Assembly: GCF_018304945.1 (NCBI RefSeq)
Contig: NZ_JAGQEE010000002.1
Location: 186,001 to 250,000, forward strand
DNA: 64,000 bases
Source of the DNA: Collimonas humicola
GTDB taxonomy: Bacteria > Pseudomonadota > Gammaproteobacteria > Burkholderiales > Burkholderiaceae_D
Direction: 5' to 3'
Made by a program: the position numbers and the translations under genes. Of the stretch, positions 9,058 through 31,337 are shown piece after piece (within the stretch, counting starts at the first letter, position 1; the number at the start of each line of letters is the position of its first letter). The notes beneath the pieces are model-generated. The model ran no database searches. It was not told where the DNA came from and saw nothing but the letters and a program-made list of their open reading frames with translations.

Positions 9058-9075
9058 TTTTGTGGAGCTACAAAC

Positions 9076-14129: not shown

Positions 14130-14164
14130 TCGAACAAGCGCCCATTTGTTGAGACCAAGAAATC

Positions 14165-14391: not shown

Positions 14392-14439
14392 CGCCTGACG
14401 AATACTCAATCTACGAGAACAATTTGAGGAATAGATCAT

Positions 14440-15132
14440 ATGGATATCCCCTCAACGCATGTATTTGAGACTCTCACGGAAAAAGGGGTAATTCAACTTC
14501 ATCACGCGAATAGCGTTGCGACTGCATGTCAATTTATTCGCTCTCGATCATTGATGTCTCGCGGTACCGTAGAGCGCCTCGATGTAGCACAAACGTCCCA
14601 ATCCTCTGACGACGTGGATAGGCGCTATAGTGTTTGGTTTGATGTCTTCCTTGACTCAGTAGACATCCATAGACGTGCCAGGCGGGCGAATGTTTATGGT
14701 CCTGTCCTTTTCGTCTTCGACATAAACATCATCAACAAAAATAGCACCGGCCGAATATGGGTCACTAAGATCAATCCGACAAAATGGGCTGGGAGGCCTG
14801 ATCACTCGCGCTGGTTTCAGGACAGAGATGATCTAGCAGAAAATTTTGTTTTGGGGCGCTTCGATCAAATGATCGTACTTCGTCACAGTGGCGGGAGCCT
14901 CCCATTCGGCAGACATCTTAAGAAAATTATTTTCGACGATCCTCATTGTCTGACAGAAGATGACGTTGATTTCTACAGCATGGGTGTTGGCGCATTGCGT
15001 CATGCAATGCAGGATGGAGGAATTGATGTTCCGATTGAGCGGCGGAAATGCTCTGATCGATGTTCATGCGAAACCTACTGGGATAGCGACTACGAGCGCC
15101 TTCTTAAAATGTATGACCCCAAAATAAGGTAA
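14440..15132 (+). CDS. Hypothetical protein, possibly ADP-ribosyltransferase-like
   Basis: A 230-aa protein starting after a good GAGGAA site. The N-terminus IQLHHANSVATACQFIRSRSLMSRGTVE resembles the opening of DarT/ART-type folds (His near an Ile-rich helix that ends in leucine-serine-arginine-glycine). A later segment FDQMIVLRHSGGSLPFGRHLKKIIFDDP could match the conserved C-terminal strands. The tail has a Cys cluster (KCSDRCSCETYWD). I see no diagnostic catalytic motif, so the assignment is a guess from pattern. It precedes the 718-aa nuclease-like gene by 95 bases on the same strand and may form a unit with it. Confidence 0.45.
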   Translation: MDIPSTHVFETLTEKGVIQLHHANSVATACQFIRSRSLMSRGTVERLDVAQTSQSSDDVDRRYSVWFDVFLDSVDIHRRARRANVYGPVLFVFDINIINKNSTGRIWVTKINPTKWAGRPDHSRWFQDRDDLAENFVLGRFDQMIVLRHSGGSLPFGRHLKKIIFDDPHCLTEDDVDFYSMGVGALRHAMQDGGIDVPIERRKCSDRCSCETYWDSDYERLLKMYDPKIR

Positions 15133-15227
15133 TCCGTATTGGCTCAGATTTGACCAAGCAGCATCACGTCACACGGGGTCTTTTTTTACTATCCAAAGTG
15201 AAAGTACTGGACTAGGAGGAAGCACAA

Positions 15228-17384
15228 ATGCAAAAACCAGATACTTCGCTTGAAGCGGAAATCGTCGATTGGTTGCTGACGCTGATCAAAACCGATCGGC
15301 TACTAGAAGCCATCGCGGAAACTGAGTGCATTCGCAGGATTGCGGAATCAGCGCGCCAACCTTCTTACATCCGGACGTTCAGCATAGATCAGGTGTCCCG
15401 GCTGGCATCTGCAGACGCAGCACAGACTGTGCTGACGAATCTAGAACCGCTCGAGATCATTGCAGTCAACAAGAGCATTTCGCTCGCTACGGGGGAAGTG
15501 CTGCGTCCCGATATTCTTTGCTTCAACCCTGAAAGTAGAACTCTTGTAGTGTTTGAGGTCAAACGTGAGGTGTTTACTGAGCGGCAAACGGTAACGGAGC
15601 TTGCAGGGTATGAGCACGAATTGCGCAACGTACTGCCATTTCTAGGGAATTTCGACATCTGCTTTGTGGTTGTAGCCAAAGATTGGTCGACTCTGCTCAA
15701 TCACGCAGTTGCAAACCTGAATGCATGGTCTGCGAAGAACTGCCTGGCGCTCAAGGTGAATACTGATAGCCAACCGTTCCGCATCGCCTGTCATTTACCG
15801 GAGGCCTGGCATCTGACAGGTAGTTTCGGCCTGCCTCCCGACGCGCTGCAGACCATCGATATGTACCTCGCTGAGGAGACGCCTGACGCCGGCGAGCACG
15901 AACCTCCTCGATCGTTGATCACAGCGATGGAGGTAATCGCGCGGGCGGGCGATCGAGCTGGCTCGCATGGGTTCTTGATGCTGTGGAAAGATGTCAACGG
16001 TATGGGGCGCGGGCGATGGGGCATGACGCTGTGCGCTGTCGATCCCATCGCTATGCACGCTTGGTGCTCGAAGCATGGGTTGCCTCGACGTCAATCGGAA
16101 GTCACAAATTACTTCGATACGCAGGCCACCGATGCGCCTGCATTAGTGCCATCTGTAGTTTACAGGATTGCAAAAGAGGCGTTTCCAATCCTGAATGACC
16201 GTTACGACCCAGAATTCGAAGGTGCTTTCTCATGGCATGAGAAACTGCGTCAGCGCCGCGTTGGTGCAGTTCCCATCCGATTCGACTTTTGGGGCAAGCT
16301 TGGAGAATATGCGCGCGAATTCATATGCAACACGGGAGTGCGTGATCGCCATATGCCGTTTATTAGCCATAACGAACTGGACTGGAGGGATCCAGAAGTA
16401 GCTATTCCCTTGATTGATAGCATATCAGGCTTATCCCCGTTCCGTGGCGGCATGATTCGCTGTAGCGATGCATTCCATGCGGGTGTGGTGTTGGGAACGC
16501 ATGAGTTTGTATCTGGCAATGCGGCCCGGAGCGACGAAGCGGCGATCCACCTTGAGCCGCTGCTTCGCTGGTCCCACGTTGAGACTTTGCATTATGCAGT
16601 AGAGATGCACGAAATCTATTTGACCGCGAAAGAGGTCACGGCACCGATGCCAACGATATCGGATAGGCCGGAGCGAAGAGCGCAGGCTGCCGCAGAACTG
16701 AGCGTCTGGGTGGAAAAGCACCTTATCGGGGACGAGCATCCAGTTCATCAGTTGTGCTTCCGGCTAGGCCGCTACGGCGCTACGCTCTTCAATGACTGGT
16801 TTGAAAGCGAAGGTGGGCGCCTGATAACGTCAGAGCAACTGACACGAATGATCTACGAAACCAAGCGCATTATTGGTGAAGTCCTGCTGCCTGCTGAGTT
16901 GCGAAGCGGGCATAGGAATCTCAGTGCGTTGCTCAAATTCAGAAAGTTCCTCGCACAACATGGTGGCGTGGCAGTAAATGAAGCAGACGACACTGCCCTC
17001 AAGCTCGTACTCAATGCATTCCAAGGGGATGCGTTGCTAGAAGTATTCGTGAGCATGGTGCTGCCTGCAATTGACGAGGTCGTCCCCGTTGTAGCACATA
17101 CAGTTTCGTCCATGCCAGAACTGGATATCGACTGGGATGGACTCAAGGCTGGCGTGCAAGCAATCTTCGATGCGGGACACCTCTGGCCGACGGTCATTGT
17201 CTCCCAAGACGGAACGGTTGGAAGTGGGCACCTTGTAGAACCGATGACCAAGTGGCTTCCCCCAATCACCGACCCAGGGGCAGAGGTATATTTTCTTAAC
17301 GAACAAGCCGTCGCCAGCATTGCTGTGAAACTCACTTGGACAGCCATAGCGCAACATGGCCTTGCGGGACAGCGCTCGGCATGA
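15228..17384 (+). CDS. Large protein with N-terminal PD-(D/E)XK nuclease-like domain
   Basis: A 718-aa protein starting nine bases after AGGAGG. Residues about 65-140 contain a PD-(D/E)XK core: SISLATGEVLRPDILCFNP (Asp near 93), then TLVVFEVKRE (Glu-Val-Lys near 110-112) and a following QTVTELAGYEHELRN helix. This is the restriction-endonuclease-like fold. The remaining 550 residues have no Walker motif or membrane segment that I can find and are unlike any family I recognise; SISGLSPFRGGMIRCSDAFHAGVVLG is a Gly-rich stretch. A stand-alone large nuclease-like protein in a defence island is a plausible single-gene defence factor, but this is inference. Confidence 0.65.
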   Translation: MQKPDTSLEAEIVDWLLTLIKTDRLLEAIAETECIRRIAESARQPSYIRTFSIDQVSRLASADAAQTVLTNLEPLEIIAVNKSISLATGEVLRPDILCFNPESRTLVVFEVKREVFTERQTVTELAGYEHELRNVLPFLGNFDICFVVVAKDWSTLLNHAVANLNAWSAKNCLALKVNTDSQPFRIACHLPEAWHLTGSFGLPPDALQTIDMYLAEETPDAGEHEPPRSLITAMEVIARAGDRAGSHGFLMLWKDVNGMGRGRWGMTLCAVDPIAMHAWCSKHGLPRRQSEVTNYFDTQATDAPALVPSVVYRIAKEAFPILNDRYDPEFEGAFSWHEKLRQRRVGAVPIRFDFWGKLGEYAREFICNTGVRDRHMPFISHNELDWRDPEVAIPLIDSISGLSPFRGGMIRCSDAFHAGVVLGTHEFVSGNAARSDEAAIHLEPLLRWSHVETLHYAVEMHEIYLTAKEVTAPMPTISDRPERRAQAAAELSVWVEKHLIGDEHPVHQLCFRLGRYGATLFNDWFESEGGRLITSEQLTRMIYETKRIIGEVLLPAELRSGHRNLSALLKFRKFLAQHGGVAVNEADDTALKLVLNAFQGDALLEVFVSMVLPAIDEVVPVVAHTVSSMPELDIDWDGLKAGVQAIFDAGHLWPTVIVSQDGTVGSGHLVEPMTKWLPPITDPGAEVYFLNEQAVASIAVKLTWTAIAQHGLAGQRSA

Positions 17385-17822
17385 ACGTGTTTCCGAAAAA
17401 AAATGATGAAATGTGTGCATTGAGCGGCTGCGATCATGTGGATGCCACGACCGTTTAGGCGCGACTTCGGTTTTTCGTGAACGACATAATTCCGCCAGAA
17501 GCTGACATATTTCGTAGAAAACACCATTGACAAAATCTGCTAAGGAATAATTTCGTCCTAGTTATCGGTGCCTCGACCATGAGGCCGATATAACTGTTCA
17601 CATTATCAAAATCTGACGACCGACTAGATTGGCGCTCCGACTGTCCATGAATAACCTGCCTGAGTTTCCAACTCAGGCCAAACTCGGTGTCTATGAGTTA
17701 CCGAAGTAAGCACCTGTGTGGCAGCAGCGCCAATTACGACGAGTACTGCTATATTGCGACGACAGAACTAAGGCCTAGTCTATTAAATTAGTGCATAGCA
17801 TTCGAATAAGGGGAATAGAGGT
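17385..17822. other. Intergenic region with a 9-bp hairpin
   Basis: 440 bases without a supported gene, between the PD-(D/E)XK protein and the Septu-like pair. A perfect stem-loop, GCCTGAGTT at 17658-17666 and AACTCAGGC at 17670-17678 with a 3-base loop, stands 145 bases before the ATPase start. It has no following T-run, so it is not a typical terminator. The rest likely holds the promoter of the downstream operon. Confidence 0.45.
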
Positions 17823-19475
17823 ATGAAAATTGTTTTTGCCTGGACAGAAAAATTCAGGACTTTCAAAAATACGGGAATAAATTTTTCTAGCACTGAAAAA
17901 TTTTCCTTCGACCCATTGAGCATGATCATTTCTAAAAAAGATTTGCCAGCTTTTCCAAAAAACTTTTTTGGAAAAGACATACTTGATGTCACTGGTATTG
18001 TTGGAAAGAACGGAGTGGGCAAGAGCAACGCGCTGGAATTAGTCTGCAGGCTTTTGAAAGGTCCTAAATTAGTTGAGACAGATTACTTGTTGATTGTCAA
18101 AGAAGGCCGACGCTTCTCCTGCTATTACTCATTTTCAGATAATCGCATCCCCGGCGCACCGAATCTGACAACCATCGATTTTCATCCCGTTGTCCAGAAA
18201 ATCAACCCGCTCAAAGTCGTGTATTTTTCAAACGTATTTGATGAGAGAGTTCATGAATTCGATAAAGACATCGCCGATATTTCCAATAACAGCCTCTACA
18301 GATTTCGCGGGATGGCTAGTTACCCGCAGCATTTACAATTCGGCAATCAGATAAGGTTTATCAACTCCAGCATATTCGCAGACCTTCAAATCGAAACGCC
18401 TTCAGAAATTCGAATCGATTTCAAAAGGAATCGTCGAGACGATTGGAGGGTTCGTCGGACTTTGGAAGATATATATTCCTTTGCAAGAGACGTTGATAAA
18501 AAAATTAGATCTCTGCCAGCTTCCGTACGTTTTGCAAATCTGCTCTCGTTGGAATGTCTTTTTCGTGTTCTTAGCGTCTACAACCGCGTTGCCCTATTCA
18601 CAAACAGCAGGGAACCCATTCCCTTCGACGATCTTATAACATCGGTAAAGAATTCTGCTAACGAAGATATCTCCGATTTGATTGTGAACTATCTGGCAGA
18701 GAAATTCGGCGATTGGGCACATAGGCCAGTTGAAGACAACATAGCTCAAGATGGCGTCAAACTGCTAGCGCTAATCACGTTTATCCGGAAAGTTAAGGCC
18801 AGCAGAATACCAATCGAAGAGCGAAAGGTCTCACCAGGAAAGTGGACATTTCTTGTTCCGTATAAGAGAAGTACCAGGGCCTTCATTCGCGCATTTATTG
18901 AAAATTGTGAAGAACTTGATTTGAATATCAGCTGGACTGGAATAAGTTCTGGACACAAGGCATATCTAAATCTCTTTTCCTCTCTCTACCGCGAGCTCAA
19001 AAGTGTGAAAATGCCCTTCTTACTTCTTTGTATTGATGAAGGCGATCTCTATCTACATCCTCAATGGCAAATCGAATTTTTCAGCAAATTGATGAAAGTA
19101 CTTCCTCAGCTCTATTCTGGGAAAATTCAGTTGCTGCTCACTTCTCATTCTCCGTTTTTACTGTCCGATCTTCCCAATAGAAACATCACGTCTTTAGGCA
19201 TCGATTCTGATGGGATCGTACAGTCTATTGATGGCATAGATTTGACAATTAAAACTTTCGGTGGAAATTTATACGACCTTTATGCCGAGCCACTTTTTCT
19301 TGGTTCCGCAAAGCGCGGACATTTCGCACAACAAAAAATCGATCAACTAATCGATGTTGTTAAGGGTACAGAAACAGTAAGCAAGACCAAGCGAATTGAG
19401 GTAATGAAGACCCTTGAGGTTCTCGGCGATGAATTGATCAGTTTTAGCTTAAAGAGAGTAATCGGCCATGATTAA
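17823..19475 (+). CDS. Septu-like ATPase (PtuA-like)
   Basis: A 550-aa ABC/SMC-type ATPase. Walker A is GIVGKNGVGKSNALELV (about 59-75), the signature-like segment is WTGISSGHKAYLNLFSSLY, Walker B is LLLCIDEGDLYLHPQW (about 400-415) and the switch region is LLLTSHSPFLLSD. The last 100 residues lack a TOPRIM domain, separating it from OLD nucleases. In Septu, PtuA forms a ring that controls the HNH nuclease PtuB and releases it on infection. The next gene encodes an HNH protein and overlaps this one by 8 bases, the Septu arrangement. A ribosome site (GGGGAATAGAGG) precedes the ATG. Confidence 0.78.
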   Translation: MKIVFAWTEKFRTFKNTGINFSSTEKFSFDPLSMIISKKDLPAFPKNFFGKDILDVTGIVGKNGVGKSNALELVCRLLKGPKLVETDYLLIVKEGRRFSCYYSFSDNRIPGAPNLTTIDFHPVVQKINPLKVVYFSNVFDERVHEFDKDIADISNNSLYRFRGMASYPQHLQFGNQIRFINSSIFADLQIETPSEIRIDFKRNRRDDWRVRRTLEDIYSFARDVDKKIRSLPASVRFANLLSLECLFRVLSVYNRVALFTNSREPIPFDDLITSVKNSANEDISDLIVNYLAEKFGDWAHRPVEDNIAQDGVKLLALITFIRKVKASRIPIEERKVSPGKWTFLVPYKRSTRAFIRAFIENCEELDLNISWTGISSGHKAYLNLFSSLYRELKSVKMPFLLLCIDEGDLYLHPQWQIEFFSKLMKVLPQLYSGKIQLLLTSHSPFLLSDLPNRNITSLGIDSDGIVQSIDGIDLTIKTFGGNLYDLYAEPLFLGSAKRGHFAQQKIDQLIDVVKGTETVSKTKRIEVMKTLEVLGDELISFSLKRVIGHD

Positions 19476-20511
19476 GCTTCAGACCTTTCTCAAGATAACT
19501 GATAAAGAATTACATGATGTCGCGACTGCGCAATGGAACTGTCTAAATGTGAGAAATAAGTCAGGAAAAAAGGAGTACCGAGGAAGCTCTTTGATAAAAA
19601 AAGTTGAAGCAGCAAAACTTGAGATTTCGCAGCCAGCCTATCAAGATAAGTACAAGGAGGCTGGAAAGCGCCATCAAAAATTTATCGAATACCTATCCGA
19701 CGAGAAAAATCTCAGAGAGCTGATTATTGCGAAGCCTGCGGAATTGAAAGCAAGAGCGGATAAGATTTTCAACATCTTAAACCACGACGATATCTATACC
19801 AGCAGTAAGGGAGTTGATAGTCAAACCGAATTCGGAAAATTTTTGATAGAGAAAATTTTCGACTATTCGGCGTACCGCAGTGGTGCCCCTTTCATTAAAA
19901 TTTATCTAACGCAGCTGAAACTTAAGTCGCTTACGTGCCCCTATTGCAATTTCGTTCCACTGGAAATGACAGCATGGAAGGACGTGCAGGGAGATAAACA
20001 AAAGGCGTACTTGGATCTGGATCATTTTTATTCAAAGTGTAGATTTCCGTTCTTTGCGCTTTCCTTCTACAACCTAATACCGTGCTGCCACTATTGCAAT
20101 GCCACAGCCAAAGGTACCAAGCTTTTTGACGTTGACTCGCACATCCACCCATATCATCAGGACTTCGATGATCACTACATCTTCGACTTTGACCTCGATT
20201 TTTGGAAAAGCGACGGCGAAGCAAAGGTCAACTTGAACACAAAGAAAGGTGGCAGACCTGATAAGTTGGCGCATGATCTCTCTCTGCACCCTAGATTGAC
20301 TAACGATCTCAAAGAAACGGTAAATCTAGTCGCTGGATATCATAAGTATGCGAACGCACAAATCACTGCAAGAGAAAAGGAGATTCTATTTGACCTGATA
20401 GGCGCGACAGTGCCATTCAAGAAATGCGAGATATTGGGTTATCAAAAGGGAAAACTCAATAGAGATGTTCTGAAAAGCATAGATGCGTTTGGGATCTTGA
20501 ATATTGCGTAA
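19468..20511 (+). CDS. HNH endonuclease (PtuB-like) of the Septu-like pair
   Basis: A 347-aa protein with a zinc-bound HNH domain: TCPYCNF (about 156-162), YLDLDHFYSKCRFPFFALSF (catalytic His near 185), and YNLIPCCHYCNATAKG. The N-terminal 140 residues are charged and helical (QPAYQDKYKEAGKRHQKFIE). Its ATG sits inside the end of the ATPase gene (ATGATTAA), so the two are co-translated. In Septu this nuclease degrades DNA once released by the ATPase. At 347 aa it is longer than the smallest PtuB proteins, so it could belong to a related ATPase-HNH type rather than canonical Septu. Confidence 0.78.
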   Translation: MIKLQTFLKITDKELHDVATAQWNCLNVRNKSGKKEYRGSSLIKKVEAAKLEISQPAYQDKYKEAGKRHQKFIEYLSDEKNLRELIIAKPAELKARADKIFNILNHDDIYTSSKGVDSQTEFGKFLIEKIFDYSAYRSGAPFIKIYLTQLKLKSLTCPYCNFVPLEMTAWKDVQGDKQKAYLDLDHFYSKCRFPFFALSFYNLIPCCHYCNATAKGTKLFDVDSHIHPYHQDFDDHYIFDFDLDFWKSDGEAKVNLNTKKGGRPDKLAHDLSLHPRLTNDLKETVNLVAGYHKYANAQITAREKEILFDLIGATVPFKKCEILGYQKGKLNRDVLKSIDAFGILNIA

Positions 20512-20733
20512 GCTGTGAACTACCTGCCAGCTTCCCTAAGCATAACTGCAGCCGCCGACGCACTGCTAGCGAACAGCGTAATTTCTGCGCTGTCGTTGAC
20601 GAAACTGGTTCAGCAGCCATTATTGTGTGTTGCATCCACCGGTTGAATCCACAGCCACGAGCGGTCATTCGACACCGGCCGCTGAATGGTCGACAATTTG
20701 CAACGAGGCGCTGACTGAAGCCCTGACAAAACA

Positions 20734-22341
20734 ATGAAACCGCTGAATGATGATAATAAAAATGCGCTTCAGGCTTTGACTACAGAAGCGGACGCAGCGA
20801 AGCGTGAACTGGAATCCATCATGCGTGGCATCGCCGACGCAAGGCGCATCTTCGCCCGGAATCCTTCGGACGAATCCAGACGGAAGATGGAAGAACAAGA
20901 AAAAGAAGGCTCAGCTGCCAACGATCGTTTTAATAAAATCGTGGAAAGCATGGCAACTTTGCTCGAGCTGACGGAAGAGGAGCTCGAAGCGACCGATGCC
21001 ACAGAAACGTCAGGTGATGACCCTCCCCGGTACCACCGCGAACAATTGACCGCTGACCAAGTAGCCCCCACAGGCGAGGACGTCGGTGTTCTGCTCGCGC
21101 GTTCGTTCGACAGGCTGCTCAGGTTGATACCGAAGTCCACATTGAGCGAATACCAGGCCTCGGAATTGGATGCGCCTTGGCTCAAGGGAACGAACGGTCT
21201 CATATCCATCGTCAAAGGAGTTGCCCCGGAAAGCGAATATCCGCAGAAACACCGCTTTGCGCAGTGCGTCGGCGAGAGCCGTGCCTGGCTCATGAATGCC
21301 CCCGGATACGATATGTTCGCCGGCGCCAGTTTGATACCGCAGATTGCTCGATTGGCCGAACGACTCGATGTGCTATTGGAGATTCCAGGTGCTAAGAAGC
21401 GTGTCCGATCGCTCTGGCAGGGCTCCTCCAGGGACGTGGATTCGACAATGTTCGAATTGCTAGTCGCCGCCGGATGTGCGGCCAAAGGTCGGTCGGTGGA
21501 GTTCCTAGAACCGAGCGGCGAGAAGACACCCGACTTGCGGTGCCACGATCCTTACCCTCTTGTCATCGAATGCAAGCGCAAACGGGTCCTCACGGAATAT
21601 GAGCTCATCGAAGAGCGCGCTATGCGGGAACTATTTGGCAAGCTGGATGCCCGGGCAAGAGAGGCAGGGATGTGGGGAACGTTTTCGCTACATCTGTCGG
21701 TCGAGTCGCGGGCGGCTCCGGTCGATGAAATTATCACCTGTTTATTGCAAATGCGTTTCGCCAGCGATAGCAACGGGAGAGCAATCTATTCATGGGGAAC
21801 TGCGACCTATACGGAATCAGATCGGCTGGTGAATATTGGGTGTCAAACGCGCATGTATTCACCGATGATGCTCAACGCAGTCTTTGATTGGAATTCTGAC
21901 CTTGCAGAATGGGATGGTCTTGTCTGCCGTGTCGGAAACTATGAGGAATCAGTAGTGGACATGGCCGAAGAGCCAGTCGGGCTTTTGTGGACCAACAGCA
22001 GTGAGCAGGCGATCAAGAAGCGTTCGTGGGGCCCGATGTCTACGCTAAGGGAAGCCATCGAGCAGATCCCGCCAGGAGAATTTGGTATTCCCTATGTCGC
22101 CTACCAAGAGGGAGCCCGCAGTGCGATCGCCGACATGCGAACATTCAACTTCGCTGAGTGGTTGAAGGAGTCCAGCCATCCAGCGAATATACGCGTGCCT
22201 TTCGCGCGAATCTTCAGGTTATATCCCCGGCCGCTCGAACACGGTGCACCCGATTTCATAGAGAGCTCGATGAACTTCATTCCCGACTATGGGGATAATA
22301 TACTCCCGGGACTGTTTCCGTCGACCGTCATCGTCCATTAA
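20734..22341 (+). CDS. PD-(D/E)XK nuclease-like protein paired with ATPase-TOPRIM
   Basis: A 535-aa protein. Residues 1-85 are a charged coiled coil (TEADAAKRELESIMRGIADA and following). The centre carries a PD-(D/E)XK core: FELLVAAGCAAKGRSVEFLE, then SGEKTPDLRCHD (Asp near 266) and LVIECKRKR (Glu-Cys-Lys near 278-280). The C-terminal third is rich in aromatic residues without a known motif. I do not recognise the full-length family. It lies 78 bases before a fused ATPase-TOPRIM gene on the same strand, and the pair is a strong candidate for a two-gene defence system in which this protein would be a nuclease or DNA-binding partner. Confidence 0.7.
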   Translation: MKPLNDDNKNALQALTTEADAAKRELESIMRGIADARRIFARNPSDESRRKMEEQEKEGSAANDRFNKIVESMATLLELTEEELEATDATETSGDDPPRYHREQLTADQVAPTGEDVGVLLARSFDRLLRLIPKSTLSEYQASELDAPWLKGTNGLISIVKGVAPESEYPQKHRFAQCVGESRAWLMNAPGYDMFAGASLIPQIARLAERLDVLLEIPGAKKRVRSLWQGSSRDVDSTMFELLVAAGCAAKGRSVEFLEPSGEKTPDLRCHDPYPLVIECKRKRVLTEYELIEERAMRELFGKLDARAREAGMWGTFSLHLSVESRAAPVDEIITCLLQMRFASDSNGRAIYSWGTATYTESDRLVNIGCQTRMYSPMMLNAVFDWNSDLAEWDGLVCRVGNYEESVVDMAEEPVGLLWTNSSEQAIKKRSWGPMSTLREAIEQIPPGEFGIPYVAYQEGARSAIADMRTFNFAEWLKESSHPANIRVPFARIFRLYPRPLEHGAPDFIESSMNFIPDYGDNILPGLFPSTVIVH

Positions 22342-22419
22342 CGTACTCCCGCTACCGCAGGCTTGCTGCTATGTCTGCTTTGTAGAATGCCACAACCGCC
22401 ACGCGACATAGAGATAAAT

Positions 22420-24228
22420 ATGATTACATCAGTATCGTACCGAATACTTGGAAAACATGGCTCTATTGAAGATATGAGCTGGGATAATGTCCCACCATTA
22501 TCCATCGTTACTGGCGAAAATGGCGCGGGGAAAACGCAACTGCTGGAGGTCTTGGCAGCAGGTTACGGGCAGAGCATCTTCGGGACGCTGGGAATGCGAA
22601 ATAAACTTATGGGCACCGCTTTGGAAATTGACGGCAAGAGGTATATGGGAGGCAATGCATTCTACGCCGATGCATCATGGATACCGTCCGATTGGGGCTC
22701 AGCAAGCATAGAAATAATTTCTGCCGAAGCTCATCGTCTCTATGATGTGCCTGCGACAAATGCATTTTCGACGTTTCTGGATGACCCGCTCTATATAGAT
22801 TGGGAGGAAATCACTACTAGCGTAGATGACAACGTGACTACATCCCAGATCATCCGCCCCGGCTGGGACAAATTTGAGTCCCGACTCACGCCAGCTCGCC
22901 TTGCACAAGGTACGAGTAACCAAAACAACCTAGCGTTCCTTTTTCTCAGTTATGAGGTATTGCGGGCTGCGGCGAAAGACAGAGCTGCTAGGAATTCCGA
23001 AGATACAATGGGCGTAATCGAACAACTCGGCGACCCACCTTGGGAAACGTTTAATACATTCTGCAAGGAGGCCGACGTAGGTTTTGAGATTGTTGCACCA
23101 TCAATAGAACGCCCAACTATCCTTGCTCGTCCGACACCGCCATACCAACTACAGCTTCGAGACATCAAACGAGGAACGGTAGTGCCAGTCTCCGAAGCCT
23201 CGTCAGGTGAACGCATCATGCTTTCAATTGTTGCCTGGCGATACTTGGCAGAAACCTGGAAAAAGAGTTACGACGTGATCATTCTTGACGAGCCAGACGC
23301 CCATCTACACCCTTCATTAGTCAGAAAATTTCTCAGCGTTCTCCAAAGCGTATTGGTCGAACGCCATGGAGCCCGAGTAATCATCACGACTCATTCTCCA
23401 TCGACGGTAGCGCTCGCTCCCAAAGGCTCAGTATTTGAGCTGCAACGGCACGGTACACCTCGAATCGTGCCAGTAAAAAACTCAGCTGAGGTGGTAGCCA
23501 AACTCACAGGCGGGCTGGTCGCAGTGGATACAGCCACGCGGTTTATTGTCCTTGAAGGACCTTCCGATCCACCGTTTTATAGGGGACTCTGGACTCTGAT
23601 GGTGGAAGCGGGATTGACTAGCTTCCCAGGTGTATCGTTCTCAGTTAGAGACGGCTGTTCAAAAGTGAAAGAGACCGTACGGTTTCTTCGCGCATGGGAT
23701 TTCGAACGCTTCTACGGAATATTAGATCGAGACGCATCACCAAATCAAAACATGCCGGAAGAAGGCATCTTTGTCCATAGTAGAAACGGTATCGAGAATT
23801 ATGTATTCGATCCTTTAAATATATGGCTTTGCTTATGGCTTGAGCGCTCTCAATTCCACGCGCAGCTCTACCAAATCCCTTCACTTCGACAAGGCAACGG
23901 CTCCCGACTAAAGGAAGAGAAGCCATCAGAACTCCAGCTCGTCGTGGATTCGGTGTGGAACAAAATTCTTGCAAGTTCCCCGGAGATCGAACCTCATTTA
24001 ACAGATCTTGTTCCGGTGTATTTTAAGGGTGGTCTCCAACTGCAATATCCACGATGGTTCCTTGAATGCGACGACCACTCTCTCGCAGCAAGTGTTCGGC
24101 AAGCTTTTTCCCCATATCCGTTTCCACCGAACGACTTACATCAAAGTTATATGACGCTCAATCTCATACCCCAAGAATTTTGGGATATCTTCTCGAAAAT
24201 CGCAAAGCCTCTGCCTGACAAGGAATAG
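22420..24228 (+). CDS. Fused ABC-type ATPase and TOPRIM (DUF4435-like) protein, PARIS/OLD-like
   Basis: A 602-aa protein. ATPase part: Walker A IVTGENGAGKTQLLEVLAAG (about 28-47), signature-like SEASSGERIMLSIV, Walker B VIILDEPDAHLHP (about 286-298) and switch VIITTHSPSTVAL. C-terminal part from about 370: FIVLEGPSDPPFYRGL (TOPRIM Glu), VRDGCSKVKETV, GILDRDASPN (acidic pair) and RNGIENYVFDPLNIW. That last set matches my memory of DUF4435, the TOPRIM partner AriB of the PARIS system, here fused to an AriA-like ATPase. The start at 22420 is chosen over the earlier frame start at 22363, as the upstream 19 residues look non-coding. PARIS senses phage anti-restriction proteins; the extra upstream nuclease-like gene is not part of known PARIS. 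Confidence 0.75.
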   Translation: MITSVSYRILGKHGSIEDMSWDNVPPLSIVTGENGAGKTQLLEVLAAGYGQSIFGTLGMRNKLMGTALEIDGKRYMGGNAFYADASWIPSDWGSASIEIISAEAHRLYDVPATNAFSTFLDDPLYIDWEEITTSVDDNVTTSQIIRPGWDKFESRLTPARLAQGTSNQNNLAFLFLSYEVLRAAAKDRAARNSEDTMGVIEQLGDPPWETFNTFCKEADVGFEIVAPSIERPTILARPTPPYQLQLRDIKRGTVVPVSEASSGERIMLSIVAWRYLAETWKKSYDVIILDEPDAHLHPSLVRKFLSVLQSVLVERHGARVIITTHSPSTVALAPKGSVFELQRHGTPRIVPVKNSAEVVAKLTGGLVAVDTATRFIVLEGPSDPPFYRGLWTLMVEAGLTSFPGVSFSVRDGCSKVKETVRFLRAWDFERFYGILDRDASPNQNMPEEGIFVHSRNGIENYVFDPLNIWLCLWLERSQFHAQLYQIPSLRQGNGSRLKEEKPSELQLVVDSVWNKILASSPEIEPHLTDLVPVYFKGGLQLQYPRWFLECDDHSLAASVRQAFSPYPFPPNDLHQSYMTLNLIPQEFWDIFSKIAKPLPDKE

Positions 24229-24301
24229 TGACTCGTATGCTGAATATGAATCTTGTTTCAGCGCATTTCACATAGTCAATATTGTAGTTTGGGGTAGTGA
24301 A

Positions 24302-24600
24302 TGCAATGCACAGCAAAGTTTCTACAGCAACGTTGACGAGGCCGCCCGAGCCGATGTTTCAAGCCCTATTTCTTCGATCTGCGCTTGGACCATTTCAACC
24401 GCGACGACGACATGATGTGGGAGGGAACGGTGCGGGACGAAGACGAGATTCGCGCCGCGCTAGCCACATGGCAGGAACTCATCAAAGGTGCCGAGATCGT
24501 CACTGTTTCGCGTTCATTGGGGTATTCCGGAACGGAGCAGCAGACGCGTCAGCTGGTCAATATTGTCCTGCCGACGCTTTTGAGAATCCTTGCGTAGAGA
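24302..24600 (+). pseudogene. Remnant of an unknown gene, frameshifted
   Basis: One frame reads NAQQSFYSNVDEAARAD up to about 24355, and a second frame continues FKPYFFDLRLDHFNRDDDMM to the stop after 24597 (ending VNIVLPTLLRILA). Both halves look coding, with GC-rich third positions like the backbone rather than the island, so a frameshift has broken one small gene and the 5' end is missing. Function unknown. Confidence 0.45.
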
Positions 24601-24785
24601 ACATGGCCATACACGATATAAATCTCAAGCTGGTAAGTCACTCTCTACCGGTTGATCGTTAAATACAATTTGCTCGCTCGCTTTTTTACTCGGACAGGCT
24701 CACTACAGCAATGCTTGCACCCGGACGGTCCGTATACGGCGTCGGAGAGGTTCGAATGTTTTGGCGAACGATAATTTTCGCCGGC

Positions 24786-25028
24786 TCACTGCTTAAAAAG
24801 ATCTATGGGATCGACGCTCAATGCGATGGCCAATTTTTCTATATTGTCCAAAGAGATGTTCCCCACCCCCCTTTCAATTTGACTGACATACGTTCGATGG
24901 AAGCCCGCCAGTTCAGCAAGGTATTCCTGAGAAATGCCTTGAGAATTACGTAGGTTTTTGAGGTTTTTCGCAAACCTGCTGCGCAATGATTCTGATTTCG
25001 ATGTAGTCATATTGCGACTAGATTCCAT
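24786..25028 (-). CDS. XRE-family helix-turn-helix regulator
   Basis: An 80-aa Cro/C1-type DNA-binding protein: RFAKNLKNLRNSQGISQEYL then AELAGFHRTYVSQIERG and LEKLAIAL-type helices, ending DPIDLFKQ. I start at the ATG at 25028; another ATG at 25010 is possible. Four repeats with a 15-base period lie immediately upstream (25041-25095), so the gene very likely regulates itself, in the style of controller proteins of restriction systems. It is divergent from the membrane-protein gene at 25191, which may share control. Confidence 0.85.
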   Translation of the reverse strand: MESSRNMTTSKSESLRSRFAKNLKNLRNSQGISQEYLAELAGFHRTYVSQIERGVGNISLDNIEKLAIALSVDPIDLFKQ

Positions 25029-25040
25029 CACTACTGCAAG

Positions 25041-25095
25041 TAAATCTACAGCGCATATATCTACCGTATTTACATATACTGCCTTTATATCTACA
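25041..25095 (-). promoter_or_regulatory. Four operator-like repeats with 15-bp period, upstream of XRE gene
   Basis: On the plus strand the repeats read TAAATCTACA (25041), TATATCTACC (25056), TACATATACT (25071) and TATATCTACA (25086), each exactly 15 bases from the next with 5-base spacers. They end 13 bases before the XRE start codon and are its probable binding sites. Confidence 0.65.
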
Positions 25096-25190
25096 ATGAG
25101 CTTTCGCAAAACTCTGACGACACCTATTCTCGCGCTCAACAAAAACGAATCTCAAAAAATCTACACCTTTCCCACATAAAGGAAATGAGG

Positions 25191-25817
25191 ATGTTCAATG
25201 CATTGCGCCGTAAAGTGGCACCGACGCTCTTTGGAAAAATTCTGACCAATAAAATTGTTGGAAAAATCTGCGCCCTATCGCCTTACAAAGAATTCGAGCA
25301 CGCCGTTACATACGAATCCATCACGCTGATTGTTGCTGCTCAAGAGGGTGCTTCTGATGAACTTCAGCTGCGCAATGTGCATATGCGCAGCGAAGGCAGC
25401 GCATTAATTCAGTCGCTTATCGGTCAAAAAGTTGAATTGGCGATTGTCGAAAGTTTGACACTTAAACCTGTCACGGCCCTGTGCGCTATCAAACAAGAAA
25501 ACGGCCGGATTGAAAGCTTTCCAATTCGCGGGATCAAGTACTCGGCAATCAAAAATTCAAATGACTTTTTTATGCCATTGCTCGTGAACTGGACATTGGC
25601 GTCGCTCGCAATAGGCGCCATCGCATCAATCGTTTTCGTTGGATTTTGCATCTTGTGGGCTGGACTATTCAAGTCTCGCTTTAATTTGGACGGAGCATTC
25701 AGTGTCATTTGGTGCGGCTCGTTTATATTTTCTGGCTATGTAGCCTATAGCGAACTGCTTGGTTTTCCACTCAAGCTGCATCGGCAGATAATGAATGCTG
25801 CTGAGATATTAAAATGA
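25191..25817 (+). CDS. Hypothetical membrane protein
   Basis: A 208-aa protein with two predicted membrane helices near the C-terminus (LVNWTLASLAIGAIASIVFV and GAFSVIWCGSFIFSGYVAY) and a soluble N-terminal region of about 130 residues with beta-strand pattern (YESITLIVAAQEG, KVELAIVESLTL). I take the ATG at 25191, seven bases after AAAGGA, rather than the ATG at 25185. It is divergent from the XRE gene. Family not recognised; a membrane effector is possible but unsupported. Confidence 0.6.
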   Translation: MFNALRRKVAPTLFGKILTNKIVGKICALSPYKEFEHAVTYESITLIVAAQEGASDELQLRNVHMRSEGSALIQSLIGQKVELAIVESLTLKPVTALCAIKQENGRIESFPIRGIKYSAIKNSNDFFMPLLVNWTLASLAIGAIASIVFVGFCILWAGLFKSRFNLDGAFSVIWCGSFIFSGYVAYSELLGFPLKLHRQIMNAAEILK

Positions 25818-25921
25818 TGTTCGCCAAAGGAACCGTCTGCAATACGCGAAGAACAATAAGCTGCTTCCTGCAACAAGTTGCGATACATGGTGGAGTCCTT
25901 TTCCTTTTGCTTCCTGGAGCG

Positions 25922-26191
25922 TCAAGGCAGCGTTATACCGATCAACACTGCCGCCGCCTTAAGTCCGTCATAGGCTGGTTTGAGATTCGCTACAACTCCA
26001 ATCGCGCTACCGATCATTGGGAGGAAAGAGGTGAGCTTGGTAAGATTTGGATTCTCCTTGGCCAACTCGGCCTTTCCATCTTCCACCAATTCGAGAATCT
26101 CAGCCTTGTTCTGACCAGGTATGACCGAACCAATTTTTAAGATTACCGCCGCCAGGCGTCCCGATGTGGAAGCGACTGGTCCCGCTTCCAA
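25922..26191 (-). CDS. Small hypothetical protein (89 aa)
   Basis: A short protein with a helical, Ala/Leu-rich C-terminus: AEILELVEDGKAELAKENP followed by LPMIGSAIGVVANLKPAYDG and LKAAAVLIGITLP. The latter pattern occurs at the ends of many small proteobacterial proteins of unknown role. It starts at a TTG with no ribosome site and overlaps the preceding gene by 92 bases in another frame, so either its start is further inside, it is translationally coupled, or a frameshift has altered the region. Confidence 0.45.
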   Translation of the reverse strand: MEAGPVASTSGRLAAVILKIGSVIPGQNKAEILELVEDGKAELAKENPNLTKLTSFLPMIGSAIGVVANLKPAYDGLKAAAVLIGITLP

Positions 26192-26375
26192 TATGGTAAG
26201 GGCCGAATCTGACGACGCGATCCATCTTACTTAGCCGCATGACCTCATATTCCGGCCGCTCGTACCGCCTGACGGCATCTTCTTCGGTCATGGGCCAGCG
26301 CGTTTTGCCCCACTTCTTGCTGATCGGATCGAGGTAACGAATAAAATACATCGAAATGATGTGTTCGGCCTCCAT
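26100..26375 (-). CDS. Small hypothetical protein (91 aa)
   Basis: Starts at the ATG at 26375, preceded by GGAGAGG. The sequence begins MEAEHIISMYFIRYLDPISK and contains KWGKTRWPMTEEDAVRRYER, a pattern I associate with short uncharacterised proteins in Burkholderiales that describe mismatch-like beta-strand/helix folds. No motif suggests a function. It is divergent from the gene at 26466, and the LexA-type box between them could control both. Confidence 0.55.
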   Translation of the reverse strand: MEAEHIISMYFIRYLDPISKKWGKTRWPMTEEDAVRRYERPEYEVMRLSKMDRVVRFGPYHIGSGTSRFHIGTPGGGNLKNWFGHTWSEQG

Positions 26376-26422
26376 AGCGCCCTCTCCAATTCCGGCTTTT
26401 GCATAGCACCGGTAAACATATA

Positions 26423-26442
26423 TACTGTATATACATACAGTA
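26423..26442. promoter_or_regulatory. LexA-type SOS box
   Basis: The 20 bases contain CTG at 26425-26427 and CAG at 26438-26440 separated by ten A/T-rich bases (TATATACATA), with flanking TA on both sides. This is the CTG-N10-CAG palindrome bound by LexA in enterobacteria and betaproteobacteria, close to the E. coli consensus. It lies 23 bases before the start of the 102-aa gene and 48 bases from the divergent 91-aa gene. Confidence 0.75.
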
Positions 26443-26465
26443 TATTTCAAATTTTGGAGAACACC

Positions 26466-26774
26466 ATGCGCCTTACAGATATGAGCGAATTTGATGCAGT
26501 AATTGCCTGGGCAGAGCCAATTATCGCCACGATAGTCACCCGCCACCGCACGGAGGAACAACCACTTACCTGGCGATTAATCCATTCAATCGAAGGTGAA
26601 GTTCTCGATGAATTGAATCGCGCCGACGACCTGAAACCGGCCTATATCAATTTGATTAAGCATTCTGGGATTCTCAACTACCCACTTAATGACGACCCGG
26701 TGGATTTTGGCAAATCAAATGCGATTGCCTGCGCCTTCGCGATGATCTACGAGGCGTATCACCGTCTGCATTGA
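26466..26774 (+). CDS. Hypothetical protein, probably SOS-controlled
   Basis: A 102-aa protein starting at the ATG at 26466 after GGAG. The sequence is acidic and helical (SEFDAVIAWAEPIIATIVTR, SIEGEVLDELNRADDLKPAY), with no membrane segment or known motif. The LexA-type box 23 bases upstream suggests it is made after DNA damage. In mobile elements, SOS-induced small proteins often act as anti-repressors, toxins or excision factors; which of these applies cannot be told here. Confidence 0.65.
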   Translation: MRLTDMSEFDAVIAWAEPIIATIVTRHRTEEQPLTWRLIHSIEGEVLDELNRADDLKPAYINLIKHSGILNYPLNDDPVDFGKSNAIACAFAMIYEAYHRLH

Positions 26775-26968
26775 GTCCGGGCAACATCCAGTCGGCGCGC
26801 GCAGACAGCTATGTGCAGTGAAGCCGCCGTTCAGATTTACATCTGAGGAAAGCCAATCCCATCCGCATCAGTAATCGCGTCATAGAAGATCAATGACCGC
26901 AATCAGAGACACGGGCGCCTTTGACGTTGCTGCGTGGCGCCCGTCGCTTCTGTTGATCAGCGAAGAGT

Positions 26969-27400
26969 TCAAACGGGCTTGTCGCTGCAGTGGTTGGTGT
27001 AGAAACTGACGCCATTGCCATCAGGATCTTGTATTGAGAAATAATTATGGCCATATAGGTCGTCATCTGGGATGACGGACGGCGAATATCCTTTGTCGAT
27101 CAGGCCGACCCTGTAGAGTTCCAAATCTGCCTTTGTGCGGCCAGCGATCATCAGGTCTATTTTTTCGCGGCCAAAATCTGGTCGTTGTCCGACATGACTA
27201 TTCTGCAAAGTACTACTCTGACTATCGTCCTTTTGGAATAACAGTAAATGTGTACCACCGCGCAGCTCAACGATCGCCAGTCCGGGAAATTTGTCTAACG
27301 CGCGTAGACCTAAACCAACATAAAACTGAAAACTTTCCTCGATATTTTGCACTTTCATAACAAAGTGGCCGAGTGCAGCGGCAGGCAAAAAATCTTCCAT
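26969..27400 (-). CDS. VOC-family (glyoxalase/dioxygenase fold) protein
   Basis: A 143-aa single-domain-pair VOC protein: ALGHFVMKVQNIEESFQFYV at the start, LAIVELRGGTHLLLF, and the C-terminal metal-site region GHNYFSIQDPDGNGVSFY. Members include glyoxalases, ring-cleaving dioxygenases and antibiotic-binding proteins. The ATG at 27400 is chosen because AAGGA lies just upstream. It is divergent from the tetR gene with two palindromes between them, so TetR probably represses it. Substrate unknown. Confidence 0.85.
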   Translation of the reverse strand: MEDFLPAAALGHFVMKVQNIEESFQFYVGLGLRALDKFPGLAIVELRGGTHLLLFQKDDSQSSTLQNSHVGQRPDFGREKIDLMIAGRTKADLELYRVGLIDKGYSPSVIPDDDLYGHNYFSIQDPDGNGVSFYTNHCSDKPV

Positions 27401-27476
27401 TTCAAATCCTTTCATAAGTTCTTTAGTGGGCCAGCGGGAAATCAAACTTGTTACGCAAGCAACATCGTGTTAATCT

Positions 27477-27514
27477 GACTGGCCAGTCGAATATATTATC
27501 CGACTGACCAGTCG
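27477..27514. promoter_or_regulatory. Paired TetR operators
   Basis: GACTGGCCAGTC at 27477-27488 is a perfect 12-base palindrome and CGACTGACCAGTCG at 27501-27514 is a 14-base palindrome of the same core. They lie between the VOC gene and the divergent tetR gene and are the likely binding sites of the regulator. Confidence 0.8.
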
Positions 27515-27532
27515 AAAAAGCAAGGAGTTGTT

Positions 27533-28084
27533 GTGACACGAAAGAAAGTAATCGACAGAGACAGGGTCTTGGATGCTGCCGAGGCTGTCATCTTCGAATC
27601 TGGCGGCCGAAATTTCACGCTCGATGCCGTCGCAGAGCGTGCGGGGATTAGCAAGGGCGGTCTCGTCTATACCTTTGCGACTAAGGATGTATTGATACTC
27701 GCGGCATTAGAACGAGAGCTCGACCGTTTTCAGGAGGCAGTGCGTCGGCGACTCGGCAGCGGACCAGCTGGGCCGATTCAATTGGCGCTCGCCCATATCG
27801 AGGAAGCACTGGCCGAGGACGACGCCTCGACGCAAATGGCGGCTTTCCTCGTAACGGCACTCGTGCATGCCCCTGACATGCTAGGGCCGGTGCGACACTT
27901 TTATCGCGCACTACTCGATCCGTTTCGATCAGAACATGGAGAGTTTGCTGAAGTCCGTCAAGCACTGCTGGCTGTTGAAGGTATTTTTCTGCTCAGAGGG
28001 CTCGGTTTTGCAGAGGTTTCCCCAGGCGAGATCAAGGGTGTTCTGCTCCACGCACGGAATAGTGTCCTTGCAGCGTTGGATTAG
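27533..28084 (+). CDS. TetR-family transcriptional repressor
   Basis: A 183-aa protein with an N-terminal helix-turn-helix: VLDAAEAVIFESGGRNFTLD followed by AVAERAGISKGGLVYTFATKD (about 13-53). The C-terminal ligand domain is helical. The GTG start at 27533 follows AAGGAG. Two palindromic operators overlap the promoter, so it probably represses itself and the divergent VOC gene until a small molecule binds. The pair looks like passenger cargo, perhaps for detoxification, rather than anti-phage defence. Confidence 0.9.
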   Translation: MTRKKVIDRDRVLDAAEAVIFESGGRNFTLDAVAERAGISKGGLVYTFATKDVLILAALERELDRFQEAVRRRLGSGPAGPIQLALAHIEEALAEDDASTQMAAFLVTALVHAPDMLGPVRHFYRALLDPFRSEHGEFAEVRQALLAVEGIFLLRGLGFAEVSPGEIKGVLLHARNSVLAALD

Positions 28085-28191
28085 CCGACATTGGGCGCAC
28101 AGCCTGGAAAGACCGCCATCGACCACGACCGAACGTTCGCTTCAGCGTTAGACTTGATGCTGCACAGATAGATTATTGTAGAAAGGTAGTG

Positions 28192-28374
28192 ATGGCTGCA
28201 AAAATAATCGCAATATTGCTGCTATTGACGGCGGGTTATACCGGGTGGTGGGCGTTATCCAACGACGCAATTTTATGGCTGGTATCGGCCTTTGCTAACA
28301 TACGGGTACGACGCCGACAACCGCGGCATCGCACGATAGAAAATACGAAGCACCTTCCACATATGAATCCATGA
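28192..28374 (+). CDS. Small membrane protein coupled to the ApeA-like gene
   Basis: A 60-aa protein starting at the ATG at 28192, preceded by AAAGG. Residues 4-22 are a hydrophobic helix (KIIAILLLLTAGYTGWWAL), followed by a basic tail (RVRRRQPRHR). The stop codon overlaps the start of the next gene as ATGA, and that gene has no ribosome site of its own, so translation of the two is probably coupled. The small size means it could still be chance. Confidence 0.45.
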   Translation: MAAKIIAILLLLTAGYTGWWALSNDAILWLVSAFANIRVRRRQPRHRTIENTKHLPHMNP

Positions 28375-30020
28375 ACCCGGAAATCATCTTCACCCAGGAC
28401 TATAGCCACGACGTAACGGCCTCCCACACCGAACTTGGGGAATTGGGAGATGGTAGGTTAACTTTCGGACCTGGCAAAGGCACGACCCTGCAATTCAGGC
28501 TGAGTAGCCTCAAGCTCACGGAGCGACAAACGCTCGATGAGGTTCACGCAGTTACCGAGGACGGTCAGAACTTCACCCTCTTTAACTGCCAGTTTGAACA
28601 GCTATTCCTTTCATGTGAATACATTGTTAGCGCAGAGACAACCGATGCATTCGTTCTGGCAGAGATGGAGGTTCTGGACATTTCGCCGTGGTTCTTCGAG
28701 TACCAGCACATGAGTGGCAAGCCTGGAGCACAGATAGAGTGGATCAACACACCTGACGAGATAAGTGCGAGCCTGAAGCTTGATGGCAACGACATTGCCG
28801 TCAAAGCTTATCCGCGCACCAACGTTGTTCAGGCAGACGGCGGCCATTTAATCAAGGATTCGGTTCTCTTCAGCATTGAGAGCGCCTCCCCCATTAGCAT
28901 AGATAACGTGAGACGATACACCATCGACTTGCTGGCTCTGTTGAGCATACTTCTGGGAACACCAGTCTCTCTCATGAGCGTGGTTGTAAAGTCTGCTAAG
29001 GATCACGCTGGATACGCATTCTTTCCTTTTTATGAGCGTGAAGCGGACACGGGCGCTCGCAAAAAGAGTGGCATTGACTACTTCATAAAAAAGTCCATCT
29101 TCGAAGACAATTGGCAAACCATAGTCCAAAATTTCTATGCCTCGAAGTTGCGCGATCCGCTGTGGTTGCGCCTGTCAGGAATGAAGCGGTATAACGACTT
29201 CTGGGAATACAAGGTCCTAGGTTATGTCACTCTTTGGGAAGCGTATGTCTCATCTCAAACACAGAGCCTTGGAAAGAAACACATTCCAACACCCCAGAAG
29301 GCAGTCAAGTTTTTTCACAAGAAGATAGACCAAAGCGATCTCTCTCTGACGCACGAGCAGGCTCAGGGAGTGAAGAATCTAGCTGATTCAGTTTTCCAGA
29401 CTCGGGAATACACACTTCAAGAGAAAACTGAGATTGTCATCTCTCAGGCCGACCCTGATGTAATCAAAATCATCGACCTGTCTGTAGAAGCCTTCGTCAG
29501 GCTCAGGAAACTCCGAGACGAGATCGCGCACGGCGACGTCATCACCATACCTCATGATGAATATCCCCTTCTATCCAGTCGCGTCGAGAAGCTAACTCTA
29601 CTACTTACCTACTTCGCATTTGCTGAGCTTGGACTGAAAAGGGACGAATTTCTTGCGTGCCTACATCGGGCGTGGAACAGAATGGTCAGAGGCGCCAGCC
29701 TTAATGAGGCGCATCTGGATAAGGTCATGGGGACCGCGGAATTCATTACTCTGTCCAGCGAAAACTTTCTCGCACTACAGCCATTAGCTAACGGACAGGC
29801 GCTTCGCTGTTTTTACAGGAACGACACCGGGAAGATTAGCTTTTCCCAAGAAGACACGAAGACATACCTCGCCAAGCTCCATTCCAATGCAGTGGGTAAC
29901 AATCCAAACTACAGCGAGGTATTCAACAACCACGAGAAGAAGATTCGGCTCATACCCAACTTGTACTTTGAGGATGGGCAGCACCATCTTCATTTCAGTA
30001 GCGTGTTCCTCTTCGAGTGA
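28371..30020 (+). CDS. ApeA-like HEPN anti-phage protein
   Basis: A 549-aa protein. The N-terminal half has beta-rich sequence with TFGPGKGTTLQFRLSSLKL and the ISPWFFEYQH region that I recall from the N-terminal domain of ApeA-type proteins. Near residue 383-388 is RDEIAHGD, an R-X4-H motif of HEPN ribonucleases, set within a helical region (EAFVRLRKLRDEIAHG). ApeA is a single-gene anti-phage HEPN ribonuclease causing abortive infection. Length and layout agree. The last 100 residues do not match any motif I know. It is translationally coupled to the small membrane ORF upstream. Confidence 0.7.
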   Translation: MNPEIIFTQDYSHDVTASHTELGELGDGRLTFGPGKGTTLQFRLSSLKLTERQTLDEVHAVTEDGQNFTLFNCQFEQLFLSCEYIVSAETTDAFVLAEMEVLDISPWFFEYQHMSGKPGAQIEWINTPDEISASLKLDGNDIAVKAYPRTNVVQADGGHLIKDSVLFSIESASPISIDNVRRYTIDLLALLSILLGTPVSLMSVVVKSAKDHAGYAFFPFYEREADTGARKKSGIDYFIKKSIFEDNWQTIVQNFYASKLRDPLWLRLSGMKRYNDFWEYKVLGYVTLWEAYVSSQTQSLGKKHIPTPQKAVKFFHKKIDQSDLSLTHEQAQGVKNLADSVFQTREYTLQEKTEIVISQADPDVIKIIDLSVEAFVRLRKLRDEIAHGDVITIPHDEYPLLSSRVEKLTLLLTYFAFAELGLKRDEFLACLHRAWNRMVRGASLNEAHLDKVMGTAEFITLSSENFLALQPLANGQALRCFYRNDTGKISFSQEDTKTYLAKLHSNAVGNNPNYSEVFNNHEKKIRLIPNLYFEDGQHHLHFSSVFLFE

Positions 30021-30173
30021 TGAGCACAAAGCTAGGGCGAGAGTGGGTGAAAGGACGTCCATTCAACCCCAAGCAGCGGACGCTGAAGCCATGACGCACT
30101 GAACATCGGCTCAGGGTCGTTTTCTGCCAGTCCCAACACGCACCGTATGGTCAGCGCAGTCGGTTAGTCGCTT

Positions 30174-30743: not shown

Positions 30744-30745
30744 AG

Positions 30746-31189: not shown

Positions 31190-31337
31190 ACATCTTCTCT
31201 TTTAATGATCAAAAATATTTGGCAAAGTCCAAAGGAACTAAGCCAGCGCAGAATTAATGACACTCACGACTACCGAACTCTCCCTTACTTGGCACGTCGC
31301 CGTCATCAGGAAGAAGCTCCAGCTAATCGTCAAACAT

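Follow-up and report, generated by a model that had tools for sequence, protein, structure and literature searches.

Single-chain proteins that join an ATPase to a TOPRIM domain are known from PARIS fusions, retron type I-B effectors and OLD nucleases. Rousset et al. 2022 (PMC9122126) report ariAB in 5.2% of genomes, encoded either by two genes or by one fused gene, and built models for the fusions. AriB has been described as a two-metal TOPRIM nuclease with tRNA as its substrate (PMC12409363). The class status of single-gene AriAB proteins is left undecided in a review (PMC10568477), and the split class 4 falls inside class 3 in the Cran1 paper (PMC12796447). YbjD, a lone OLD protein of E. 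coli, confers anti-phage phenotypes on induced expression, and its Toprim domain is dispensable (PMC13261556). Here we analysed two adjacent genes, gene 1 and gene 2, carried by a 64,000-nucleotide stretch of the Collimonas humicola genome (contig NZ_JAGQEE010000002.1, positions 186,001 to 250,000), hereafter called the window.

A sequence-only reading of this locus had described a coiled-coil protein with a PD-(D/E)XK core followed by a fused ATPase-TOPRIM protein, and had proposed that together they form a new two-gene system. Inspection of the open reading frames (ORFs) bore out both genes as described. Our analysis indicates that genes 1 and 2 are probably two separate single-gene defence modules that became neighbours by chance in a cargo-rich genomic island. 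Their features are as follows.

20734..22341, plus strand: gene 1 (P0001), ATG at 20734, 535 aa.
Gene 1, about residues 6-76: predicted N-terminal helical coiled coil (AlphaFold helices 6-42 and 46-76, a long hairpin).
Gene 1, between coiled coil and core: middle helical region.
Gene 1, about residues 232-321: PD-(D/E)XK-like core (E241, D267, E279, K281).
Gene 1, after the core: conserved C-terminal part.
22420..24228, plus strand: gene 2 (P0002), 602 aa from ATG 22420.
Gene 2, about residues 1-345: ABC-type ATPase domain.
Gene 2, about residues 366-480: DUF4435-like TOPRIM domain (E379, D436-x-D438, E459-N460), followed by a C-terminal tail.

The spacing between the two genes is 78 bp if gene 2 starts at ATG 22420, or 21 bp if it starts at an upstream TTG (22363), which would yield a protein of 621 aa. 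The ATG appears likelier because of the sequence that precedes it, ACATAGAGATAAAT-ATG, and because relatives start close to this position in the alignment.

To date, four other full-length relatives of gene 1 have been found (39-71% identity), making five loci with the window. They belong to Telluria antibiotica (71%), Trinickia dinghuensis (62%), and plasmids of Sinorhizobium fredii and Agrobacterium leguminum (39% each). Local tblastn revealed no gene 2 orthologue near gene 1 in any of these four loci (0/4), the lone Telluria stretch that it returned (27.5%, 138 aa) being an OLD gene, and the gene 2 model A4 had no match at E≤1e-10 in the four corresponding genomes or records (0/4). In the other direction, the gene 1 model A5 matched none of six genomes or records containing gene 2 relatives (two genomes and four plasmid records); as a positive control, the same query recovered the known gene 1 members among 392 genomes of the family. 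Furthermore, a viral-contig search with the gene 2 family alignment returned at least 52 loci, at least 35 of which scored above 170 bits to the family hidden Markov model (HMM), and no ORF of the gene 1 family was found in these listed loci, including the 35 strong ATPase-TOPRIM ones. Among the 392 family genomes, with at most three first-look candidates scored per genome for either gene, both genes were found together in their own genome only. Therefore, the conserved pairing that the sequence-only reading had suggested surveying was not found in the limited sample searched, and because the genes do not co-occur elsewhere in it, the proposed two-gene system is unsupported.

The genes adjoining gene 1 relatives also differ from locus to locus (Gabija, HamB-like helicase, AAA ATPase/QatA, PIN_12), which argues for independence. 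Defence genes are nearby in four of the five loci. Gabija, including GajA, is close to gene 1 in Telluria. In Trinickia, a PIN_12 gene follows gene 1 after 523 bp, and in Sinorhizobium the downstream gene is on the opposite strand, with a HamB-like helicase in the neighbourhood. The Agrobacterium gene 1 is flanked on both sides by opposite-strand genes, one of which encodes a 240-aa AAA ATPase followed by QatA, and therefore forms its own transcription unit there. Third-codon-position GC content differs between gene 1 and gene 2 of the window (0.61 vs 0.47), which weakly suggests that they arrived separately.

Two side observations concern plasmid loci. The Sinorhizobium neighbours (L003, 860-6736) comprise a PDC-M68B-like protein, a 264-aa protein without a PADLOC match and the HamB-like helicase, and this set is possibly a Hachiman-like unit. 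A partial relative of the gene 1 core on a Rhizobium plasmid (L007, 6998-7954; family HMM A5, 2.4e-13) has a TrlF-family AAA ATPase on one side and an AAA-domain gene on the other.

We also looked for a recurrent partner of gene 2, listing two ORFs per side for the 35 strong viral loci and clustering all ORFs within 3 kb. No neighbour family was found in more than 6 of these 35 loci. The two commonest (6/35 each) resemble, on visual inspection, phage lysis and DNA-methylase genes and occur on mixed strands or at varying distances. In two genomes (G010 and G045), the gene 2 relative lies between what appear by eye to be ordinary chromosomal genes, and on plasmids of Planktothrix, Rhizobium and Croceicoccus its annotation is that of a single AAA family ATPase gene. 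In Croceicoccus, a type I restriction operon precedes it by about 570 bp. SRAP-like N-termini were noticed by eye near gene 2 relatives in L048, L053, L058, L060, L068 and L079, using a motif that we assume to mark SRAP (YedK/HMCES)-like proteins; a scripted pattern recovered such genes in only 2 of the 35 loci, and SRAP-type genes were dropped as a recurrent neighbour. On a Caballeronia plasmid (L026, 2288-14344), the gene 2 relative lies between two large TIR-domain proteins, together with one small opposite-strand gene, and the upstream TIR protein contains nSTAND1 and WD40 repeats.

Several observations weigh against independence of the two genes. Genes 1 and 2 are on the same strand and 78 bp apart, which makes co-transcription possible, and no terminator-like site was found in the gap between them. 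In Telluria, an OLD-type ATPase-TOPRIM gene (PF20469, 1.2e-13; PADLOC Old, 3.5e-44) is located 139 bp 3' of gene 1 on the same strand, so that some ATPase-TOPRIM gene stands directly 3' of gene 1 in two of the five loci. Only five full-length gene 1 members were available, two of them as plasmid records, and five loci are too few to argue against a loose association with ATPase-TOPRIM proteins. The search for gene 2 covered the whole genomes of Telluria and Trinickia, and plasmid records only for Sinorhizobium and Agrobacterium. Furthermore, a 274-aa ORF overlaps the gene 2 relative of L071 by 4 bases on the same strand, and same-strand ORFs lie 20 and 15 bp from the relative of L076. Because of these close neighbours, not every gene 2 relative is a lone transcription unit, and individual relatives may have a partner. 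Finally, several viral loci stop at contig ends, leaving some flanks short.

ATPase-TOPRIM genes stand directly 3' of gene 1, on its strand, both in the window (78 bp away) and in Telluria (139 bp away). This would fit a scenario in which gene 1 encodes an interchangeable nuclease subunit for any downstream single-chain ATPase-TOPRIM, the pair acting as a unit of two nucleases under one ATPase sensor. However, no such gene was seen directly 3' of gene 1 in Trinickia, Sinorhizobium or Agrobacterium, where the opposite-strand 240-aa AAA ATPase was left without a TOPRIM scan. Sequence comparison also indicates that the Telluria OLD-type protein is not orthologous to gene 2, as the two align over the ATPase part only (28% over 132 aa). 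Moreover, gene 2 relatives occur without gene 1, and OLD-like genes are frequent in such islands, with GajA found in both the window and the Telluria loci. We consider such a shared subunit improbable. A portable gene 1 nuclease that docks on swappable single-chain ATPase-TOPRIM sensors (resembling AriAB in the window and OLD in Telluria) also seems improbable to us; if true, one sensor would control two nucleases of different folds.

The identity of gene 2 as a fused ATPase-TOPRIM protein, as first described, was supported by several lines of evidence. Two Pfam ATPase families matched it above their curated cut-offs (AAA_21, 1.8e-17; AAA_15, 7.2e-16). The best PADLOC model was AriAB (E 3e-25, residues 249-466), followed by the retron ATPase-Toprim_I-B model (1.4e-21), and each of these two models matched 32/32 members of the gene 2 family. 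These members make up alignment A8, which combines the window and two genome loci with 29 of the 35 strong viral loci. Of the six others, L049, L054, L056, L061 and L073 start at or close to a contig end and were excluded, as was L062. The ATPase motifs G32-x-N34-G35-x-G37-K38, S261-x-G263-E264, D290-E291-x-D293 and H325 are invariant in all 32 rows. The absence of a TOPRIM fold, which had been named as a refuting outcome, was not found: the acidic set E379/D436-x-D438 is likewise invariant in 32/32 rows, and at least 90% of the 32 members keep E459-N460.

Searches with established models were less uniform for the C-terminal region. DUF4435 matched 7 of the 32 whole family proteins (E≤0.1) and 10 of the 26 isolated C-termini of alignment A9 (E≤1), which holds 26 of the 32 members of A8, and left gene 2 itself unmatched. 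A PDB sequence search with the C-terminal stretch of gene 2 alone returned no TOPRIM chain. The AlphaFold model of gene 2 (mean predicted local distance difference test [pLDDT] score of 85, predicted template modelling [pTM] score of 0.60) had the Thermus OLD nuclease 6p74 as its top Foldseek match (E 3.9e-9, TM 0.23/0.27), and GajA (8x5i) came at rank 6. Because ranks 2-5 were SMC/condensin ATPase heads and the whole-chain TM scores were low, Foldseek backs the ATPase firmly and the TOPRIM less so. The assignment of the C-terminal region as a probable TOPRIM domain stands on the invariant acidic residues and the DUF4435 matches within the family.

Like the PARIS fusion AriAB (class 4 OLD; PDLC02981), gene 2 combines an ATPase and a putative DUF4435-like TOPRIM domain in one chain, but its match to that model is partial (profile positions 299-525 of 694) and it misses the DUF4435 Pfam model. 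Since such fusions were published in 2022 (PMC9122126), an AriAB single-gene fusion in gene 2 is not new. Gene 2 could be a true single-gene PARIS, and gene 1 either an accessory independent of PARIS or a restriction nuclease unrelated to it. PARIS senses an anti-restriction protein (PMC9122126); gene 2 would accordingly be triggered by such a protein from a phage, and would stand guard over gene 1 or other island nucleases. The rank of AriAB as top PADLOC model and its match to every family member are in keeping with this proposal, but the retron I-B model scores nearly as well on gene 2 and matches just as many members, and DUF4435 does not match gene 2 itself. We regard a true single-gene PARIS as unlikely.

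Two other assignments were rejected. Gene 2 resembles the retron type I-B effector (class 3 OLD; PDLC02914) as a single-chain ATPase-TOPRIM, but in retron I-B a reverse transcriptase and a retron RNA stand beside the effector and neither was found beside gene 2. The scanned neighbour proteins included no reverse transcriptase (some small ORFs fell outside the scan), and Rfam gave no match at gathering threshold at 13000-28400. Class 1 OLD proteins (P2 Old, Thermus OLD 6p74) are also single-gene ATPase-TOPRIM proteins, and 6p74 was the best fold match of gene 2. However, PF20469 (OLD-like_TOPRIM), which matches the Telluria neighbour, was not found after the ATPase of gene 2, matched neither gene 2 nor the 26 family C-termini at E≤1, and was not among the best 25 of 44 Pfam families for the 32 whole proteins. 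The domain content of gene 2 fits a further single-gene member of a broad ATPase-TOPRIM family related to AriAB fusions and retron I-B effectors. Its nearest relatives among the matches listed are on viral contigs (L048, 56%; L049, 56%, incomplete) and on the Caballeronia plasmid (54%). Gene 2 was detected at E≤1e-20 in 3 of the 392 family genomes (its own, G010 and G045), and at E≤1e-5 in 16 of 148 relatives, mostly as short ATPase stretches; phage records gave no match.

Gene 1 also conforms to its first description as a coiled-coil protein with a PD-(D/E)XK-like core. Residues E241, D267 and E279-x-K281 are invariant in 7/7 rows of alignment A1 and in 10/10 rows of A7. In the AlphaFold model (mean pLDDT 71, pTM 0.65), the core elements run in the order H232-250, E255-257, E268-270, E276-283, H288-310 and E315-321 (H, helix; E, strand), and this helix-strand-strand-strand-helix-strand order around the motif residues is the one expected of a PD-(D/E)XK fold. 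The label of this putative core rests on motif and element order because fold and library searches assign none. Searches of Pfam, PADLOC, NCBIfam, PHROGs and the PDB with gene 1 gave no significant match, the single Pfam line being Spore_III_AB (0.17) over the coiled coil, and PDB sequence searches with gene 1 and its alignments found no solved relative. Foldseek searches of the model against the PDB and BFVD gave nothing at E≤0.001, and the top rows were judged spurious. The earlier view that gene 1 is not a PARIS part is supported.

Mrr is an example of a type IV-like, stand-alone PD-(D/E)XK restriction nuclease. Gene 1 is similar to stand-alone nucleases of this fold in that a single gene encodes its PD-(D/E)XK-like core and no conserved partner was seen, but differs from Mrr and other Pfam nuclease families in matching neither Mrr_cat nor any such model; none of 10 gene 1 family members matched a Pfam nuclease model at E≤1, Mrr_cat included. 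The family is small, is named in none of Pfam, NCBIfam, PADLOC, PHROG and PDB, and is the remaining novelty of the locus.

The distribution of gene 1 was surveyed in overlapping genome sets. A single-sequence search of genome contigs gave no match, and the Telluria and Trinickia relatives were retrieved with a three-row alignment. Full-length members were found in 2 of the 392 family genomes (the window genome and Telluria G813, classed in the same family in the genome set), where at most three first-look candidates were scored per genome, and remote core matches occurred in six more. Within the genus of G813, 1 of 62 genomes had a full-length member. Among 148 relatives, the full-length family was found in the window genome only, with one remote match (G019). 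Remoter relatives (444-484 aa, 16-20% identity) have in common the core and some C-terminal residues. A plasmid search returned six records, two full length and four partial, and of the partial ones L007 was not used in the alignments. Gene 1 had no match in phage records or viral contigs.

Gene 1 was further found in 1 of 369 genomes of the class and 1 of 249 of the phylum, its own each time. Such rarity could point to one or both genes being unexpressed cargo without defence activity. However, the frames are open without stops and the catalytic residues are kept across distant relatives, and we consider inert cargo very improbable.

For two separate modules, we infer the following activities, triggers, substrates and oligomeric states. 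Gene 2 would act as a one-chain PARIS/OLD protein whose ATPase domain senses a phage product. Sensing would free or activate its C-terminal TOPRIM, a presumed two-metal nuclease, which would cleave host or phage nucleic acid and thereby stop infection. Given that the Toprim domain of YbjD is dispensable (PMC13261556), an effector role of the TOPRIM in gene 2 should not be taken for granted. Because no conserved partner gene was seen, gene 1 is proposed to be a stand-alone PD-(D/E)XK nuclease that may dimerize or oligomerize through its N-terminal coiled coil and cut incoming DNA by its own recognition of a modified or unusual DNA feature.

These results strike off a doubtful dual-nuclease system and leave two smaller leads in its place. 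The first is a PD-(D/E)XK-like family located near defence genes and named in no library searched. The second is a broad single-chain ATPase-TOPRIM family with many members in viral contigs, which scores between PARIS fusions and retron I-B effectors. It provides material for the question, raised in a review (PMC10568477), of whether single-gene AriAB proteins form their own class.

Both genes lie in a genomic island inserted in a Mg-chelatase gene, which we take to be comM-like. From about 9.1 kb onwards, GC content is 0.42-0.54 instead of about 0.60. Comparison of two stretches at the island borders gave no exact direct repeat of at least 10 bases. The features of the island and its borders are as follows.

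9124..41694: genomic island (~32 kb, approximate borders).
7987-9123: Mg-chelatase, N-terminal part.
41695-42048: Mg-chelatase, C-terminal domain.
9217-11229, minus strand: Gabija GajB (PADLOC, 5.5e-254).
11207-12955, minus strand: Gabija GajA (PADLOC, 2.2e-210).
17823..20511, plus strand: PDC-M62A (ATPase, 550 aa) and PDC-M62B (347 aa; PADLOC, 4.2e-78 and 1.6e-38).
34598-36106, minus strand: tyrosine integrase, right end of the island.
36051-41054, minus strand: three unassigned genes, right end of the island.

PDC-M62A/B is a Septu-like pair and a candidate PADLOC system, PDC-M62B also having weaker PtuB matches; it stops 222 bp 5' of gene 1, outside the gene 1-gene 2 pair. A 718-aa protein (15228-17384) has no Pfam or PADLOC match, and its N-terminal part (RPDILCFN...VVFEVKRE) resembles by eye another PD-(D/E)XK motif. 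Finally, a 549-aa protein (28371-30020) matches ApeA_NTD1 (3e-18) and, weakly and below the cut-off, an Apea-like HEPN domain, making it a further candidate defence gene of the island.

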